Below are positions 909 through 7,038 of a stretch of DNA of 7,038 bases, piece after piece. Both the position numbers and the translations under genes were made by a program. The notes under the pieces were generated by a model that was given only the letters and a program-made list of their open reading frames with translations, was not told the DNA's origin and did not search any database. The DNA lies in the NCBI RefSeq assembly GCF_020075705.1, contig NZ_JAIQUM010000138.1, positions 1 to 7,038 on the forward strand. Direction: 5' to 3'. The stretch is from Metabacillus rhizolycopersici. GTDB taxonomy: Bacteria > Bacillota > Bacilli > Bacillales > Bacillaceae. The number at the start of each line of letters is the position of its first letter. Position 1 is the stretch's first letter.

Positions 909-2360
909 CTAGGCAACTCGATTCCAGTCCGAGATATCTTCATCAAGCGGAAGATTGTTTGCCCGAGCTTTTTTAGCTGCATGAAAGAATAACACAAGAA
1001 GAATTGTAGTTCCGATGATACCGCCAATCCATGAAATATCCATTGATAAGCGCAAGCCGATTTGCGCGTTTAAAATATAGGTTATGACCATAACTAGCAT
1101 AAAGGCCCCTGGGATAAGCGGGATCCAATAGTTTTTCTTAGCAATGTATAAATACATGGCTCCGACAAATAGAGCGATCACCGATGTTGCTTGATTGGCC
1201 CAACTAAAGTATCTCCATAAAAGGTTAAAGTCGATCTGAGTGAGTACGATTGAAATAACGAATAACGGTACAGCGATCCATAAGCGGCTTGACATTTTCT
1301 TTTGGGCAATGTTTAGATATTCAGCAATAATCATCCGGGCACTTCGGAAAGCTGTATCCCCAGAAGTAATTGGTAAAACAACCACACCAAGCACGGCAAG
1401 TGTCCCACCGATTGCACCGAGCATCATGGTAGAAACTTCGCTAACAACGGCTCCAGGTCCGCCTGCTGCAAGAATTTCATTTAATCCGTTATACCCGTTA
1501 AATAAGCTCATCGATGCAGCTGCCCAAATCATCGCGATAATCCCTTCAGCAATCATCATGCCGTAGAAAATTTTGCGTCCTTGTTTTTCATTTTGAGTTG
1601 TCCTCGAAATGATTGGTGTTTGGGTAGCATGGAAGCCTGAAAGAGCCCCACACGTAATCGTGAAAAAGATCAATGGAAAAATTGGCGCATTATCTGGATG
1701 GAAATTTGCTAATGAAATCTCAGGAATTGGCGCGCCCGTAACGACTAACCCAATCCCGACACCAAGAGCACTAATCACTAGCAACGCTCCAAAATATGGA
1801 TACAAACGACCAATGATTTTATCAACGGGTAAGAGAGTCGCTAAAATATAATAAATAAAAACAGCAGCGACAATCACGCCCAATGCGATTTTACCATCCA
1901 TTAAGACATGAAGGAGACTTGCCGGTGTCGAAACAAATACCGTACCTACTAATAAAAGAAGCAGGACAGCAAAGGCATTCACAACGTGCTTCATTACTTT
2001 TCCTAAAAACTTACTTGCAAGCTCAGGTAAATGGGCACCACGGTTACGAATCGAGATCATCCCTGTTAAATAATCATGAACAGCACCGGCAAAAATACAG
2101 CCGATTACGATCCAGATAAAGGCAACTGGTCCGTAGAGTGCACCCATAATTGGCCCGAAGATAGGCCCTGTCCCGGCGATATTTAAGAGCTGGATTAAGG
2201 AATTCTTATATGTGCTCATCGGAACATAGTCAACGCCATCGCTGTTGACATATGCAGGAGTGGCCCGATCTTCCTTTACACCGAACATTTTTTCAATCAA
2301 TTTGCCATACGTGAAATATCCTATAAGTAAAAGAGCAATACCCCCTAAAAATGTATACAT
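909..2360 (-). CDS. cstA: CstA-family (carbon starvation A) transporter, probable pyruvate or peptide uptake
   Basis: The protein has 483 residues, a polytopic membrane protein of the CstA family. It is much shorter than the ~700-residue E. coli CstA and BtsT but matches the short form common in Firmicutes. Family signatures are an N-terminal helix (1-16), YVPMSTYKNSL (45-55), NIAGTGPIFGPIMGALYGP (60-78), the HDY around 95-97 followed by RNRGAHLPEL (105-114), CGALSGFHATQTPIISRT (237-254) and SGDTAFRSARMIIAEYL (333-349). The ATG has AAGGGGGAG six bases upstream. CstA proteins take up peptides in enterobacteria, and E. coli BtsT/CstA also carry pyruvate by proton symport. The upstream LytS/LytTR pair argues for pyruvate here, but the substrate is inference. 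Regulation is likely by LytTR activation (2448-2500) and CcpA repression (2393-2407). Confidence 0.93.
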   Translation of the reverse strand: MYTFLGGIALLLIGYFTYGKLIEKMFGVKEDRATPAYVNSDGVDYVPMSTYKNSLIQLLNIAGTGPIFGPIMGALYGPVAFIWIVIGCIFAGAVHDYLTGMISIRNRGAHLPELASKFLGKVMKHVVNAFAVLLLLLVGTVFVSTPASLLHVLMDGKIALGVIVAAVFIYYILATLLPVDKIIGRLYPYFGALLVISALGVGIGLVVTGAPIPEISLANFHPDNAPIFPLIFFTITCGALSGFHATQTPIISRTTQNEKQGRKIFYGMMIAEGIIAMIWAAASMSLFNGYNGLNEILAAGGPGAVVSEVSTMMLGAIGGTLAVLGVVVLPITSGDTAFRSARMIIAEYLNIAQKKMSSRLWIAVPLFVISIVLTQIDFNLLWRYFSWANQATSVIALFVGAMYLYIAKKNYWIPLIPGAFMLVMVITYILNAQIGLRLSMDISWIGGIIGTTILLVLFFHAAKKARANNLPLDEDISDWNRVA

Positions 2361-2392
2361 AAATTTCTCCCCCTTTTATTTTTTTAAAAGAA

Positions 2393-2407
2393 TGAATGCG
2401 TTTACAT
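2393..2407 (-). promoter_or_regulatory. CcpA cre site at the cstA start of transcription
   Basis: On the minus strand the sequence is ATGTAAACGCATTCA, which agrees at all 15 positions with the cre consensus WTGNAARCGNWWWCA. It begins three bases after the predicted -10 (2411-2416), so CcpA bound here would cover the start site and repress cstA when preferred sugars are present. This fits the carbon-starvation role of the family. Confidence 0.85.
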
Positions 2408-2410
2408 ATA

Positions 2411-2419
2411 AGTATAATA
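2411..2419 (-). promoter_or_regulatory. Predicted -10 region of the cstA promoter (no good -35)
   Basis: The minus strand reads TATTATACT, so the -10 is TATACT (2416-2411) or TATTAT (2419-2414). At 17-bp spacing the -35 position reads TCCCTC or ATCTCC, far from TTGACA. A good -10 with a poor -35 is typical of a promoter that needs an activator, and three direct repeats lie just upstream. The start site would be near 2404. Confidence 0.55.
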
Positions 2420-2447
2420 GATAAAAAGTTGCAGAGGGAGATTTTGA

Positions 2448-2500
2448 GATTAAAATGTCAAAAATAAAGATTATCATGCTTTAAATAAGGATTAAGATGC
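2448..2500 (-). promoter_or_regulatory. Three 21-bp-spaced direct repeats, probable LytTR regulator operator of cstA
   Basis: On the minus strand GCATCTTAATC (2500-2490), GCATGATAATC (2479-2469) and ACATTTTAATC (2458-2448) share RCATNNTAATC and begin exactly 21 bp apart, two helical turns. LytTR-domain regulators bind direct repeats on one DNA face; E. coli YpdB, for example, binds two GGCATTTCAT motifs with the same 21-bp period. The promoter-proximal copy ends about nine bases before the -35 position. The regulator is most likely the product of the adjacent lytT gene. Confidence 0.72.
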
Positions 2501-2534: not shown

Positions 2535-3242
2535 AGCCTTCACATAATTCCGGCTAACCGACAACATCTCGTCTCTTCCTTCTATTTGCAGTTGATAAGC
2601 ACCATTGAACCAGGGAGTTAGACGAGTAATGTATTCTAGGTTAACAAGATAGCTTTTATGAATCCGGAAAAAATGGAACGTACTGAGTTTGCTTTCCAAC
2701 TCTTTGAGAGGTGTTTTCGTTTCAAACTCTCCTGTTTTTACGATCATTTTCGTTAACTTATCGTCCCTGAACATATAAAGGATGTCCTTTGGATCAAAAT
2801 ATAAAATCTCTCCATTTGCTTCAAAAGCAAGTTTCCCAGTTGGTTTACCTGGATCCTTTTCATAGTAGCCTTTGAACTTTTTCTCAATTCGTTCGATTGT
2901 TTCCTTCAATTGATCTTCGTCATACGGTTTTAGCAAATAATCAACCGCATCGTAACGGAACGCCTCAGCTGCAAATTGCGGATAAGCTGTTGCAAAGACA
3001 ACTAAAGGTGCATTTTTTAGTTCCATTAGGACTTTGGCTGCTTCCATTCCATTCATTCGCGGCATCTCAACATCTAAAAACACAACATCAGGGTGGAGCT
3101 GAAGAGATTTCATGATGGCGGATTCTCCAGATTCTGCTTCGCCAATAATTTCGATAGTAGGAAAAGCTTGTAATAAATGCTTTAGTTCATCACGGCTGTA
3201 TAATTCATCATCGACAATGATGGCTTTAATGGGTGGTTTCAA
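2511..3242 (-). CDS. lytT: LytT/BtsR-type response regulator (REC-LytTR)
   Basis: The product is 243 residues from a TTG start at 3242-3240. I choose this start because AGAGGAGGAG sits seven bases upstream and the homologous region begins right after it. An in-frame ATG at 3281 would add 13 basic residues encoded inside the kinase gene. The receiver domain (about 5-120) has the acidic pair D11/D12, phospho-acceptor D57 (FLDVEMP), T85 (FATAY) and K105 (LLKPYD). A linker leads to a LytTR DNA-binding domain (about 137-241) with the typical FFRIHKSYLVNLEYI segment (190-204). The gene overlaps the kinase gene by 17 bp, implying translational coupling. Probable target: cstA directly downstream. The symbol follows the LytT naming; functionally it may be closer to BtsR. 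Confidence 0.9.
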   Translation of the reverse strand: MKPPIKAIIVDDELYSRDELKHLLQAFPTIEIIGEAESGESAIMKSLQLHPDVVFLDVEMPRMNGMEAAKVLMELKNAPLVVFATAYPQFAAEAFRYDAVDYLLKPYDEDQLKETIERIEKKFKGYYEKDPGKPTGKLAFEANGEILYFDPKDILYMFRDDKLTKMIVKTGEFETKTPLKELESKLSTFHFFRIHKSYLVNLEYITRLTPWFNGAYQLQIEGRDEMLSVSRNYVKALRMRLEI

Positions 3243-4983
3243 TTGATTTCTCCTCCTCTTTATAGGGAATCGAAAAGGCAATTTCTGTGCCTAAATCAGG
3301 TTCACTTTTTATTTTTAGTGCTGCTTCATCTCCAAACATCAATGTGAGCCTGCGATTCACATTGTAAAGAGCGAGACCACTTCCGTTTTCAGAATCAATG
3401 GGTGCTTTGCAAGTTTGTTCAGTCCTCTCCTTACTCATTCCTTTTCCATTGTCAGCCATTTTTATATAAGTGGAGTCCTTTTTCTTTTTAATGGTAATGT
3501 TCAACGTGCAGTTGTTTTCCTTATCCTTGAAACCATGTTTAATTGAATTTTCAACGAGAGGTTGCAAGGTAAGAGGCGGGATGTTTTGTAAAAGAGCTTC
3601 CTCATCAATATCATATAAAACAACTAACTTATTAACAAACCTGGCCTCTTCAATCGACAAATACGCTTTGACATGTTTTAATTCTTGCTCAAGTATGATT
3701 TTACTGTGTGTTGTCGCGGTCAGATTTTGTCGCAAAAAATGTGATAAAGAGATAAGTAGTTTCCTTGCCTTTGTAGGGTCAATGCGAACGAGCGAAACAA
3801 TTGTATTCAGAGTATTAAACAGAAAATGCGGACTGATTTGGGCTTGAAGTGCCATTATCTCTGATTCCTTAGCAAGCTGATAGGCTTTATCTGCCTCAAA
3901 AATTTCAAGCTGATTACTCATCATCGAACTTAGCCCAGTAATTAACTCCATCACCACGTTGGTGATCTCCTTTTCAGAGCGAAAATAAAATTTTAAGGTG
4001 CCAATCGTTTTACCACGCTGCTTTAAAGGGGCTATGACCGCAGCGCCGAGAGGACATCCCTCAACTCGACAATGAACCGAGTGTTGATTGACAACGACGA
4101 TTTCCCTACGTCTGATAGCATCCATCGTGATTTGGGTCTGGATAGGTCTTTCAGGTCGGTGATGATCATAACCAAGACCAACATGAGCGAGAATTTCTGT
4201 TAAGTTCGTGATCGCAACGGCGCTTGTTTTTATTTCATTATGAATAATGTGACAGACTGCTGTAGCAGAATGGGCATTGAGTCCATTTCGTAAATGGACA
4301 AGGGTCAGGCCTGCAATGCGCAGTGTTTTCTGAGCCTGCACGGCACCAGCTTTTTCCTCTTCGTTGATCACACTTTTAATAATCAAGAGGAAAAGGGCAC
4401 TTCCCATGCCATTCGCCAAAATCATTGGTACTCCGATGATTTCGACTAATGTCCAAGCTTTTTCTAATGGGCGGGAGATTAATAAAATAATCAACATTTG
4501 AATGGCTTCAGCCAATGCACCAATCAAAAAAGCGGACCTCATCTTTACATGTTTGTTTTTTCTATAGAATAATCCGGAAAGCGCACCCGCAATGATTGTA
4601 GCCAAGCCACAAGAAATGGCTGTAAATCCACCTAAGGTAATACGGTGAAGACCAGCGATTAGACCTGCACCAATCCCAACTTTATAGCCACCAAGAAGGC
4701 CTCCTAATACCACACCGATTACTCGTAAATTGGCAATGGACTCATCCGTAGCTAAATTAGAAGGTAAGCGATTAAATTGGAGGCTTTCCGTACTAAGACT
4801 CAACCCAGTATACGTCCCAATGATGCCAAAAAAGCCAAAAAAGATAATGGCAGTATAATGCTGCTGACGATTCATTTGATCTTGATAAAACATGTCCCTA
4901 AAAAACTTAAATCTAGTTAAAATAAATGCTATTGTTACAATAATTCCAAGTCGTTCCAACATCGTAATGAACAAATCTAACAT
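3226..4983 (-). CDS. lytS: LytS/BtsS-type sensor histidine kinase (membrane 5TM-LYT, GAF, HisKA-LytS, HATPase)
   Basis: The product has 585 residues. Hydrophobic segments near 8-24, 43-63, 85-110, 118-138, 150-170 and 180-203 form the LYT-type sensor domain (NLRVIG, GGLLGGYKVGIGAGLIAGLH). A GAF-like domain follows (about 215-360) with Cys pair C305/C310 in HCRVEGCP. Phospho-acceptor H386 lies in QISPHFLFNTLN, the N-box in LVENSIKHG (N479), G1 in DNGKGM (511-516) and G2 in GSGLALYNV (534-542). R87, R114 and C125 have the same spacing (27 and 11) as the R72, R99 and C110 I recall being reported for pyruvate binding in E. coli BtsS; the fourth residue, S113, is Ala here. The ATG has AAAAGGGG seven bases upstream. 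It partners with the overlapping response regulator, and the likely signal is external pyruvate or a similar acid. Confidence 0.9.
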   Translation of the reverse strand: MLDLFITMLERLGIIVTIAFILTRFKFFRDMFYQDQMNRQQHYTAIIFFGFFGIIGTYTGLSLSTESLQFNRLPSNLATDESIANLRVIGVVLGGLLGGYKVGIGAGLIAGLHRITLGGFTAISCGLATIIAGALSGLFYRKNKHVKMRSAFLIGALAEAIQMLIILLISRPLEKAWTLVEIIGVPMILANGMGSALFLLIIKSVINEEEKAGAVQAQKTLRIAGLTLVHLRNGLNAHSATAVCHIIHNEIKTSAVAITNLTEILAHVGLGYDHHRPERPIQTQITMDAIRRREIVVVNQHSVHCRVEGCPLGAAVIAPLKQRGKTIGTLKFYFRSEKEITNVVMELITGLSSMMSNQLEIFEADKAYQLAKESEIMALQAQISPHFLFNTLNTIVSLVRIDPTKARKLLISLSHFLRQNLTATTHSKIILEQELKHVKAYLSIEEARFVNKLVVLYDIDEEALLQNIPPLTLQPLVENSIKHGFKDKENNCTLNITIKKKKDSTYIKMADNGKGMSKERTEQTCKAPIDSENGSGLALYNVNRRLTLMFGDEAALKIKSEPDLGTEIAFSIPYKEEEKSIETTH

Positions 4984-5064: not shown

Positions 5065-5123
5065 AAAAAACAAAGGGAAGGTTCTTTGTTTTTGCAAACG
5101 CAGACACCGTCCCTTTGTTCTTT
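5065..5123. repeat. REP-like inverted repeat (GGGACGGT type) upstream of lytS
   Basis: AAAAAACAAAGGGAAGGT (5065-5082) matches the reverse complement of 5106-5123 (AAAGAACAAAGGGACGGT) at 16 of 18 positions, with a 23-nt spacer. From memory, GGGACGGT..CAAAG palindromes are common dispersed intergenic repeats in Bacillaceae. Its edge lies at the -35 position of the lytS promoter (about 5062-5068), so the element may have replaced the original promoter upstream sequence. It abuts repeat copy B at 5125. Confidence 0.65.
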
Positions 5124-5124
5124 T

Positions 5125-5261
5125 AGAATGATGTAGACAAATTTAGAAAAGAAGGGGATAGTCAATCAGTACATTTAGCTGATTGACTATCCCCTTAAAA
5201 TGGTAAATGACCTGAAATTACAAAAAGAGCAGTAGGAAGTAAAATAATTTGGTAAACTTTC
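5125..5261. repeat. ~135-bp intergenic repeat, copy B, with 18-bp-stem hairpin
   Basis: This is the second copy of the element at 391-523 and lies in the same orientation. The stem is AAGGGGATAGTCAATCAG (5152-5169) and its complement (5179-5196) with a 9-nt loop. Both 18-bp arms are identical between the copies while the loop and flanks differ, which suggests selection or recent exchange on the stem. On the minus strand it is followed by TTCTTTTCTAAATTT, so it may add termination between the small-protein trio and lytS. Confidence 0.8.
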
Positions 5262-5452: not shown

Positions 5453-5593
5453 TTAGTGCTTTTGCAGCTGGGTAGGAAGCATTTGGATCGAGTGATTTAA
5501 TGTGTCGAGCTTGTTTTCGATCCGATTTAGTAAATATAACGTGACGATGATTGGAAAGCCGACTTCACTAATGACTGATAACCATTGGTCCAT
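5453..5593 (-). CDS. yvrJ: YvrJ family small membrane protein
   Basis: The product is 46 residues from the ATG at 5593, which has AGAGGTG seven bases upstream. An earlier in-frame ATG at 5641 is rejected because its extension would translate the 3' arm of the hairpin at 5632-5660. One membrane helix (about 7-22, VISEVGFPIIVTLYLL) is followed by a charged amphipathic stretch RIENKLDTLNHSIQML (24-39) with heptad-like spacing. This matches the YvrJ family (DUF3xxx-type, about 45 residues), whose function is not established. The layout resembles short holin-like/UviB-type peptides: one helix, then a charged coil. It is the last gene of the trio and is followed by a terminator. Confidence 0.85.
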   Translation of the reverse strand: MDQWLSVISEVGFPIIVTLYLLNRIENKLDTLNHSIQMLPTQLQKH

Positions 5594-5631
5594 TGTTTCA
5601 CACCTCTTTTTCTCATATTTTGAAAAGGAAA

Positions 5632-5660
5632 GGGCTGACATGATCGTAATCTGTCAGCCC
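5632..5660 (-). terminator. Intercistronic stem-loop between DUF2922 gene and yvrJ
   Basis: GGGCTGACA (5632-5640) and TGTCAGCCC (5652-5660) form a perfect 9-bp stem with an 11-nt loop. On the minus strand the stem is followed by TTTCCTTTTC. It begins 10 nt after the DUF2922 stop. It looks like a leaky terminator or an mRNA 3'-end stabiliser that would make the first two genes more abundant than yvrJ. Confidence 0.6.
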
Positions 5661-5669
5661 AAAACCTAC

Positions 5670-5888
5670 TTATGCAAGTTCGATTTCTGTTACATTACGG
5701 TCAACGATTCGTGCGCCTTTTTTCGAGACAAATTCTCCGCCGTTCGTAATGAAAATATTTGCAGCTAGTATTTGGTCCATCGCTGTTGTTAGTGCTTGTT
5801 GGTCAACTGGATCGATGGGGGAATCAACGTTTACTTTCACCGTTTTCCCTTCCATATTTAAAAATAGAAGCTCTAATGTTTTCGCCAT
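5670..5888 (-). CDS. DUF2922 family small protein
   Basis: The product has 72 residues and no signal or membrane segment. The family pattern is clear: KTLELLFLNMEGKTVKVNV (3-21), then D-P-I-D, a helix around 28-44 (DQQALTTAMDQILAANIF), a GGEFVSKKGARIVDRN stretch (50-65) and TEIEL at the end. The ribosome site GGAGGAG lies about six bases before the ATG. DUF2922 is a Firmicute family of unknown function, regularly found next to DUF1659 and YvrJ genes. The likely fold is two beta strands, a helix and further strands. The C-terminal VDRNVT resembles VERNDT of the neighbouring DUF1659 protein. Confidence 0.88.
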   Translation of the reverse strand: MAKTLELLFLNMEGKTVKVNVDSPIDPVDQQALTTAMDQILAANIFITNGGEFVSKKGARIVDRNVTEIELA

Positions 5889-5918
5889 TTTCTCTCCTCC
5901 TCTCTATGTAGGAATGGT

Positions 5919-5963
5919 GAAGGAAAATGGAGCATGTCTAGTAACGACTCTCCCTTTTCCTTC
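5919..5963 (-). other. Intercistronic 14-bp inverted repeat between DUF1659 and DUF2922 genes
   Basis: GAAGGAAAATGGAG (5919-5932) and CTCCCTTTTCCTTC (5950-5963) pair at 13 of 14 positions around a 17-nt loop. No T-run follows in the direction of transcription, so it is unlikely to be a terminator. A processing or stabilising hairpin in the operon mRNA, or a relict of a repeat, is more likely. The 105-bp gap holds no open frame. Confidence 0.55.
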
Positions 5964-5993
5964 GTAAAGCTGGTCGTTTCTCTTTCCTCGTCG

Positions 5994-6212
5994 TTATTCC
6001 GTAATTTGATTTGTGTCGTTACGCTCGACAAATGCTAGTGTTTCAGTTTGTAAACTTCCAATTGCCTCTGCTACTTGAAGCAATTGATCTGCGGTTGCAG
6101 ATGTCTTAATGTTGTTGTAATTTTTGCGTTTGTAGATTTGCTTTCCTTTTTCATCCAAACCCATATCGAAAGCAAGTCTTAATTGAGATTCTAGTAATAC
6201 TTCAGCTGCCAT
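5994..6212 (-). CDS. DUF1659 family small protein
   Basis: The product has 72 residues and is soluble. It shows the family pattern: ESQLRLAFDMGLDEKGKQIYKRKNYNNIK (8-36, a beta hairpin around the GK turn), the SATADQLLQVAEAIGSLQ helix (38-55) and the tail ETLAFVERNDTNQI. The ATG has a near-ideal ribosome site, AAAGGAGGTGA, ending about six bases upstream, which suggests high translation. It is the first gene of the DUF1659-DUF2922-YvrJ unit. Function is unknown; the strict neighbourhood suggests the three proteins act together. Confidence 0.88.
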   Translation of the reverse strand: MAAEVLLESQLRLAFDMGLDEKGKQIYKRKNYNNIKTSATADQLLQVAEAIGSLQTETLAFVERNDTNQITE

Positions 6213-6860: not shown

Positions 6861-6925
6861 TAGTTGTTTTTTAAATTTGGGGAAATTTACTAAATGGAGA
6901 TATTGAATCGATTTATCCCGCATTA

Positions 6926-6997
6926 ACGGGCAGTAATACCCCCACCTCTAAGCTTGAGTGAATCACAAAGAGGCGAAGGTGGGGGATAACTGCCCGT
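6926..6997. repeat. 72-nt nearly continuous imperfect palindrome
   Basis: ACGGGCAGT (6926-6934) pairs with ACTGCCCGT (6989-6997), and CCCCCACCT (6939-6947) pairs with AGGTGGGGG (6977-6985), separated by a 4/3-nt internal loop. Further pairs CTT/AAG and GTG/CAC lie in the apex; CCTCT (6945-6949) and AGAGG (6969-6973) could extend or compete. Upstream CCCG (6917-6920) can also pair with CGGG at 6927-6930. The motif GTGGGGGATAA at 6979-6989 recurs as the last bases of the window (7028-7038), so the repeat appears to continue past the edge. It may be a transposon end or a dispersed structured repeat. Confidence 0.75.
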
Positions 6998-7038
6998 AAA
7001 AGCTAAGGTAAGTCTCGCTATCCATCAGTGGGGGATAA

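Follow-up and report, generated by a model that had tools for sequence, protein, structure and literature searches.

Three boxes at 21-bp steps upstream of cstA, a very probable LytT operator in Bacillaceae, and a tentative three-slot frame for LytT-linked promoters

LytTR regulators govern virulence, competence and nutrient uptake, and working models of their action have been built mostly on pairs of sites. The E. coli BtsR site at btsT consists of two repeats. In B. subtilis, LytST responds to pyruvate, and LytT needs both of two 13-nt boxes lying 8 nt apart (a period of 21) at pftAB (ysbAB), whose product is of the LrgAB type; CcpA also represses this promoter, where the cre overlaps the -35 (PMC5626966). 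In E. coli, the pyruvate-responsive LytS/LytTR pair YpdAB acts on yhjX, which encodes an MFS transporter. The two sites, with repeats GGCATTTCAT that begin 21 nt apart in the printed oligonucleotide, are filled by YpdB in the order A then B (PMC4847170). A second E. coli pair, BtsSR, activates the CstA-family transporter gene btsT (PMC5552118); BtsS binds and senses pyruvate (PMC10653868), and the CstA family includes pyruvate transporters in E. coli (PMC7730263).

Larger numbers of sites have also been described. The LytTR domains of RcoM1 and CoxC, which belong to CO metabolism, sit on three evenly spaced direct repeats of 8 bp with 12-13 bp between them, and CoxC, a repressor whose sites overlap the -35, binds efficiently only when all three are present (PMC11347149). 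AlgR, also of the LytTR type, requires three sites for full expression at algD and algC, but these are not evenly spaced direct repeats (PMC4064291).

We analysed a stretch of 7,038 nucleotides from Metabacillus rhizolycopersici (the window), which carries a lytS-lytT-cstA segment. The locus resembles B. subtilis LytST-pftAB in that LytS and LytT are encoded beside the target, the 13-nt boxes lie 8 nt apart and a CcpA site is present, but it has three boxes, a CstA-family target in place of LrgAB/PftAB, and a cre lying 3' of the -10. A LytS/LytTR pair predicted to activate a CstA-family transporter is a likeness to BtsSR-btsT. With RcoM1 and CoxC it shares the architecture alone, three even repeats under a LytTR domain; the repeat sequence, signal and protein family differ, RcoM1 and CoxC being CO-responsive and not LytS-kinase response regulators. 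A preliminary description of this DNA held that LytTR regulators are usually described with two copies: pairs are indeed usual, but triplets were already known from RcoM1 and CoxC. Among the open-access literature matches listed, none concerned LytT boxes at a Bacillales cstA promoter, subscription papers lying mostly outside the scope of that search. PMC5626966 credits a prediction of LytT sites to Leyn 2013, and a database prediction of LytT sites at cstA may already exist.

The lytS-lytT-cstA locus and its three boxes

The three genes lie on the minus strand in the order lytS, lytT, cstA, with an intergenic gap of 150 bp between lytT and cstA. The features of the locus are as follows.

909..2360, minus strand: cstA, CstA-family transporter (PF02554), the gene predicted to be under control (ORF and Pfam)
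2367..2373, minus strand: ribosome-binding site GGGGGAG, 6 nt 5' of the cstA start codon (sequence)
2393..2407, minus strand: cre-like CcpA site ATGTAAACGCATTCA over the expected transcription start, with zero mismatches to WTGNAARCGNWWWCA, which we take to be the cre consensus for scoring
2411..2416, minus strand: -10 hexamer TATACT, 30 bp past box A, without a good -35 (hexamer and TTGACA comparison)
2447..2459, minus strand: box A (proximal), GACATTTTAATCT, containing an exact 11-mer; 13.1 bits
2468..2480, minus strand: box B (middle), AGCATGATAATCT, containing an exact 11-mer; 9.1 bits
2489..2501, minus strand: box C (distal), CGCATCTTAATCC, containing an exact 11-mer at 2490-2500; 14.1 bits
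2511..3281, minus strand: lytT, response regulator with receiver and LytTR DNA-binding domains (ORF and Pfam PF00072, PF04397)
3226..4983, minus strand: lytS, sensor kinase with 5TM-5TMR_LYT, His_kinase and HATPase_c domains (ORF and Pfam)

The TTG start of lytT at 3281 is the earliest possible one, with homology starting further in, and the Pfam matches to GAF in the lytS product are weak. The closest LytT in our genome scan, from Halalkalibacter nanhaiisediminis, is 80% identical. By analogy with the E. coli members of its family, cstA is likely a pyruvate-uptake gene. The array has the general features of a LytTR-type operator: a LytTR-domain response regulator is encoded beside it, and its direct repeats of roughly 9-13 bp recur about every 21 bp, 5' of the -35 position.

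The preliminary description had reported three 11-mers, RCATNNTAATC, at a 21-bp period upstream of cstA. A re-scan of the 7038-base window returned exactly these three matches at zero mismatches, all on the minus strand (2500-2490, 2479-2469 and 2458-2448), with coordinates and period as described. When one mismatch was allowed, six matches were found, which is not above chance, so the argument depends on the exact matches and their phase. The exact motif, a post hoc choice for this comparison, occurred about 0.1 times per strand across 300 dinucleotide shuffles of the window, and pairs 12-60 bp apart occurred 0 times. When the 153 bases running from the lytT stop codon up to the cstA start were compared without a motif, the three copies agreed in 8 of 11 columns at lag 21; 4 of 500 shuffles matched this score when all lags from 12 to 44 were considered. 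Taken alone, the window thus provides moderate motif-free evidence for the repeats. The boxes fit better as 13-mers, at 2501-2489, 2480-2468 and 2459-2447.

The surrounding sequence holds several further elements. A pair of hairpin elements at 387-477 and 5121-5212, 93-95% identical and about 4.73 kb apart, brackets the whole lytS-lytT-cstA segment; each contains a long hairpin formed by GGGGATAGTCAATCAG and its complement, and one copy used as query gave no match in the plasmid collection. A row of small genes (YvrJ family, DUF2922 and DUF1659) occupies 5453-6212 on the minus strand. Near the window end, 6920-7038 looks hairpin-like by eye, with the complementary words GGGCAGT/ACTGCCC and CCCCCACCT/AGGTGGGGG.

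Conservation of the array and its spacing across genomes

For comparison, we used the best 80 of 261 confirmed loci from the LytT genome scan. In the window and 78 of these 80, cstA lies immediately 3' of lytT, giving a first set of 79 promoters; the other two loci, L034 and L067, have no CstA match. A second, distant set (distance being defined relative to the window, not to each first-set locus) comprised 63 cstA promoters whose LytT is less than 64% identical to that of the window, loci with cstA more than 460 nt from lytT being omitted. A fit of three boxes, spaced 21 bp apart, to the 79 promoters yielded a motif of approximately TRCATNTTARNCN. Because this fit imposes the 21-bp spacing, separate motif-free, cross-set and offset tests were used, and the box models for the cross-set and third-box tests were trained on the first set alone. 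The preliminary description had offered RCATNNTAATC as a motif for the clade. The box itself is conserved, but the strict 11-mer is too narrow, occurring in three exact copies in the window alone among the 79 promoters and in two copies in 7, and should be widened to the fitted form.

Of all lags from 8 to 59, 21 and 42 gave the highest self-identity of the 79 gaps, calculated without any motif. The z scores at lags 21, 42 and 63 were 18.3, 14.5 and -0.6 in the first set (n=79) and 15.0, 5.7 and -0.5 in the second (n=63). Scoring the 63 promoters with the box model from the 79 gave a mean best pair of 17.7 bits at 21 bp and at most -0.5 bits at any of the remaining spacings from 14 to 30. Exactly 21 bp from the best pair, a third box scored above 5 bits downstream in 62/79 and upstream in 17/62 promoters of the first set, and in 13/63 and 19/52, respectively, of the second; each remaining offset from 14 to 28 gave such a box in 0-2 promoters. 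The preliminary description had made conservation of the repeats and their spacing in orthologous promoters a test of its reading; both are kept, and this test did not refute the reading.

Three boxes above 4 bits at 21 bp are present in 109 of the 142 lytT-adjacent cstA promoters and two in a further 32, these being counts from a model fitted on the same 142. The usual, though not strict, description of LytTR operators as exactly two repeats therefore does not hold here. At spacings of 17-20 or 22-25 bp, none of the 142 had three boxes. The genomes compared are related, and the share with three boxes falls as the LytT set is thinned: three boxes were present in 73/101, 52/74, 23/41, 11/25 and 7/17 representatives at 90, 80, 70, 65 and 60% identity, with two-box promoters outnumbering them at 65% (13) and 60% (9). 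Judged from these sequences, three boxes are the rule close to the clade of the window, and two are as common in distant relatives. L079 and L197 fit the array poorly.

These results bear on the suggestion that the repeats are a product of chance or AT-rich low complexity, or belong to an RNA element or a terminator. By eye, a terminator-like hairpin with a GCATC arm does adjoin the array in some loci (e.g. L016, L027, L039, L045 and L060). Against this, the shuffle and spacing controls and the conservation of the spacing across genomes contradict a chance origin, the window has no Rfam match, and its array carries no terminator-like site. We regard this explanation as extremely improbable.

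In six loci (L016, L027, L035, L039, L045 and L060), the region between lytT and cstA contains a terminator-like hairpin, AAGCATC ... GATGCTTTTTT. Its left arm looks like one half of a LytT box and, judged by eye, the hairpin stands some 21 bp 5' of the array in L016 and L045. We also considered a fourth box (slot D), but it exceeded 4 bits in only 6/61 and 1/29 promoters, some of these being terminator-like hairpins by eye, and was rejected as a general feature.

Promoter geometry and the predicted regulator

The preliminary description had noted a good -10 and a poor -35, and both were recovered: the hexamer TATACT is present, and the -35 position matches TTGACA at 1/6 with a 17-bp spacer and at 2/6 with an 18-bp spacer. 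The same geometry recurs across genomes. TATAAT-like hexamers lie 29-30 bp past box A 73 times in the 79 promoters and 51 times in the 63, figures that count every hexamer with at most one mismatch (another run broke -10 ties toward the expected distance). The next commonest distances in the first set were 26 bp (13 matches) and 27 bp (7). The best -35 word has at least three mismatches in 60/79 and 51/63 promoters, and box A sits just 5' of the -35 position. This position and the poor -35 would suit an activator that takes over the -35 contact.

Allowing at most one mismatch, 78/79 and 61/63 promoters (139/142) contain a cre-like site. In the first set, most of these sites cluster just 3' of the -10, with 68 falling into a single 5-bp bin, while in the second they lie just 3' of the -10 or near the -35. 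Across these promoters, the cre appears to have moved and the array to have stayed.

To relate the array to its regulator, we searched 249 genomes of the order for LytT and CstA and collected upstream stretches from 30 CstA orthologues (at least 64% identity) without a window-type lytT directly 5' and from 10 CstA paralogues (48-51%). These 40 stretches (L302-L341) were unseen by the model, which had been fitted on the 142 promoters; an array was called present when the best pair reached 8.7 bits, the level of 99% of shuffles. The array was present in all five genomes that have a window-type LytT (54-74% identical) not directly 5' of cstA. In two of them (L302 and L304, from genomes G306 and G031), lytT is on another contig and the array precedes cstA, with no array 3' of lytT (L127 and L168); in the other three (L329, L330 and L331, from genomes G101, G292 and G143), cstA still lies 1.1-3.4 kb downstream of lytT. 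No array preceded cstA in the 12 genomes in which LytT had no match at E 1e-30 or in the 13 with a distant LytT only (L308 being at the threshold), nor was one found upstream of the 10 paralogues. The directly adjacent promoters passed in 79/79 and 62/63 cases, though these had been used to fit the model. The co-occurrence, kinship included, points to LytT as the predicted binder. The partnership with a LytT-type regulator put forward in the preliminary description thus gains support, since the array tracks window-type LytT also in genomes whose lytT and cstA are not direct neighbours.

Binding of the array by a cstA regulator other than LytT is improbable. LytT binding here is predicted from sequence, and the cre implies that at least one further regulator probably acts on the cstA promoter, both of which leave some room for such a protein. 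However, the array was found in 5/5 genomes with window-type LytT against 0/12 without a LytT match and 0/10 paralogues, its spacing matches that of LytTR sites, and boxes of a similar kind, set in the same frame, stand before btsT-like and lrgAB genes beside other LytT-type regulators (see below).

Sequence comparison shows three boxes at a fixed spacing and a near-fixed distance from the -10, conservation of a cre-like site, and an array that occurs together with window-type LytT. We consider it very probable that the array is a LytT operator through which cstA is activated, with CcpA repressing. LytS would probably sense pyruvate, as expected because B. subtilis LytST responds to pyruvate and E. 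coli BtsS binds it, and would phosphorylate LytT. Phosphorylated LytT would then fill the boxes and bring RNA polymerase to the cstA promoter, each 13-bp box taking one LytTR domain, and, with 21 bp making two turns, the domains would all lie on the same face of the helix. Box A would stand in for the absent -35 contact, LytT touching the polymerase from there, and CcpA on the cre over the start site would turn cstA off when preferred sugars are present. Activation may be cooperative or graded. Cooperativity among the boxes is plausible by analogy, since YpdB fills two sites in turn and CoxC needs all three repeats; any filling order would likewise be a prediction. The comparison supplies a recognition motif for this branch of LytT, and cstA is predicted as a target in many Bacillaceae.

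Slot use across LytT targets

For the slot analysis, in which the model was refitted within each class, the cstA set was enlarged by 7 loci and the btsT-like set by 10. Identical promoters were removed, and L251 (which shares its genome with L241) and L247-L249 (repeats of L223, L227 and L225) were omitted. In the first cstA set, slots C, B and A are occupied in 78/79, 79/79 and 59/79 promoters; in the distant set, C is occupied in 49/69 and A in 64/70. Shifted controls for slots C and A pass in at most 4/700. The mean scores for C, B and A are 14.1, 11.4 and 7.9 bits in the first set and 5.5, 9.6 and 10.8 bits in the distant one, so that the strongest box is distal in the set of the window and proximal in the distant set. 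Given this switch, we set aside a fixed order from high to low affinity, as for YpdB.

A similar frame is found before btsT-like CstA genes (about 600 residues), with z scores of 8.5, 4.2 and -0.2 at lags 21, 42 and 63 (n=16). Slots A, B and C of these promoters are occupied in 21/26, 26/26 and 16/19 cases, although in L254, L256, L257, L268, L270, L274, L285 and L290 the stretch ends near the gene start and slots may be mis-assigned. Among lrgAB promoters, six sequences gave z scores of 2.0, 2.1 and 2.6 at the same lags. The Bacillus-type lrgAB/pftAB promoters (six B. subtilis- or B. cereus-like ones and L250) have the two distal slots filled in 7/7 and the proximal slot in 0/7. A hidden proximal box would be a suggestion at most, as none of the seven passes there, the scores being 0.6 bits for L223, 3.8 for L227, 2.3 for L225 and below -3 for L222, L224, L230 and L250. 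The other lrgAB promoters have A in 15/18, B in 18/18 and C in 11/15, some of them (e.g. L269, L271, L272 and L275) having A and B only. Shifted controls rarely pass, at worst in 5/70 cases, at slot A of the Bacillus-type lrgAB promoters. The box form of the btsT-like and lrgAB promoters, TGCATTTCA, is resembled by the YpdB repeats (PMC4847170).

Two boxes might nevertheless be all that matters, forming a canonical LytTR pair with the third a relic or weak helper. Pairs are how LytTR operators are usually described, B. subtilis pftAB depends on both boxes of its pair (PMC5626966), and both the two-box cstA promoters (32/142) and the Bacillus-type lrgAB promoters, with their empty proximal slot, are in line with this reading. 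It is at odds with the strong identity at lag 42 in both cstA sets, with the occupancy of the end slots C and A in both, far above the shifted controls, and with the conservation of the distal box, which is the highest of the three in the set of the window (a mean of 1.24 bits per column compared with 0.95 and 1.03). We judge it unlikely, though it remains a serious contender.

The mixed use of slots across targets, along with the dependence of pftAB on both its boxes, leads to the proposal that two-box promoters are partly filled versions of a three-slot frame. Tentatively, and with somewhat less than even confidence, we suggest that LytT-type regulators of Bacilli use a fixed frame of three slots, with the proximal slot ending 29-30 bp before the -10. 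Two-box promoters would be partial occupancies of this frame, C and B in B. subtilis-type pftAB and B and A in several other lrgAB promoters. Slot use, differing between targets and clades, would set the gain or sharpness of pyruvate induction, and in place of a dimer the active unit would be a chain of as many as three LytTR domains. The possible novelty lies in this fixed frame in LytT-linked promoters, with the lrgAB/pftAB two-box promoters looking like partial occupancy. A widespread natural three-site promoter, together with relatives missing either end site, offers a series in which the effect of LytTR site number and position on induction could be tested.

A genome-wide search with the two-box pattern, allowing at most two mismatches in the genomes of 32 relatives, returned 187 matches compared with 169 for the reversed pattern. 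With a count so near background, a second LytT regulon target from this search was dropped; among the 28 matches listed with 0-1 mismatch, 25 were the cstA array by sequence and 3 lay elsewhere.

Further box arrays were seen 3' of lytT at individual loci. At L281, which has no CstA, BtsT-like or LrgAB match, three good boxes follow one another in 21-bp steps (TGCATTTCATCAC, TGCATTTTATCAC and TGCATCTCAGACT). In L237 and L238, boxes in 21-bp steps, three of them in L237, precede two frames that by eye resemble a small membrane protein and a sodium:solute symporter, possibly a further kind of LytT target.
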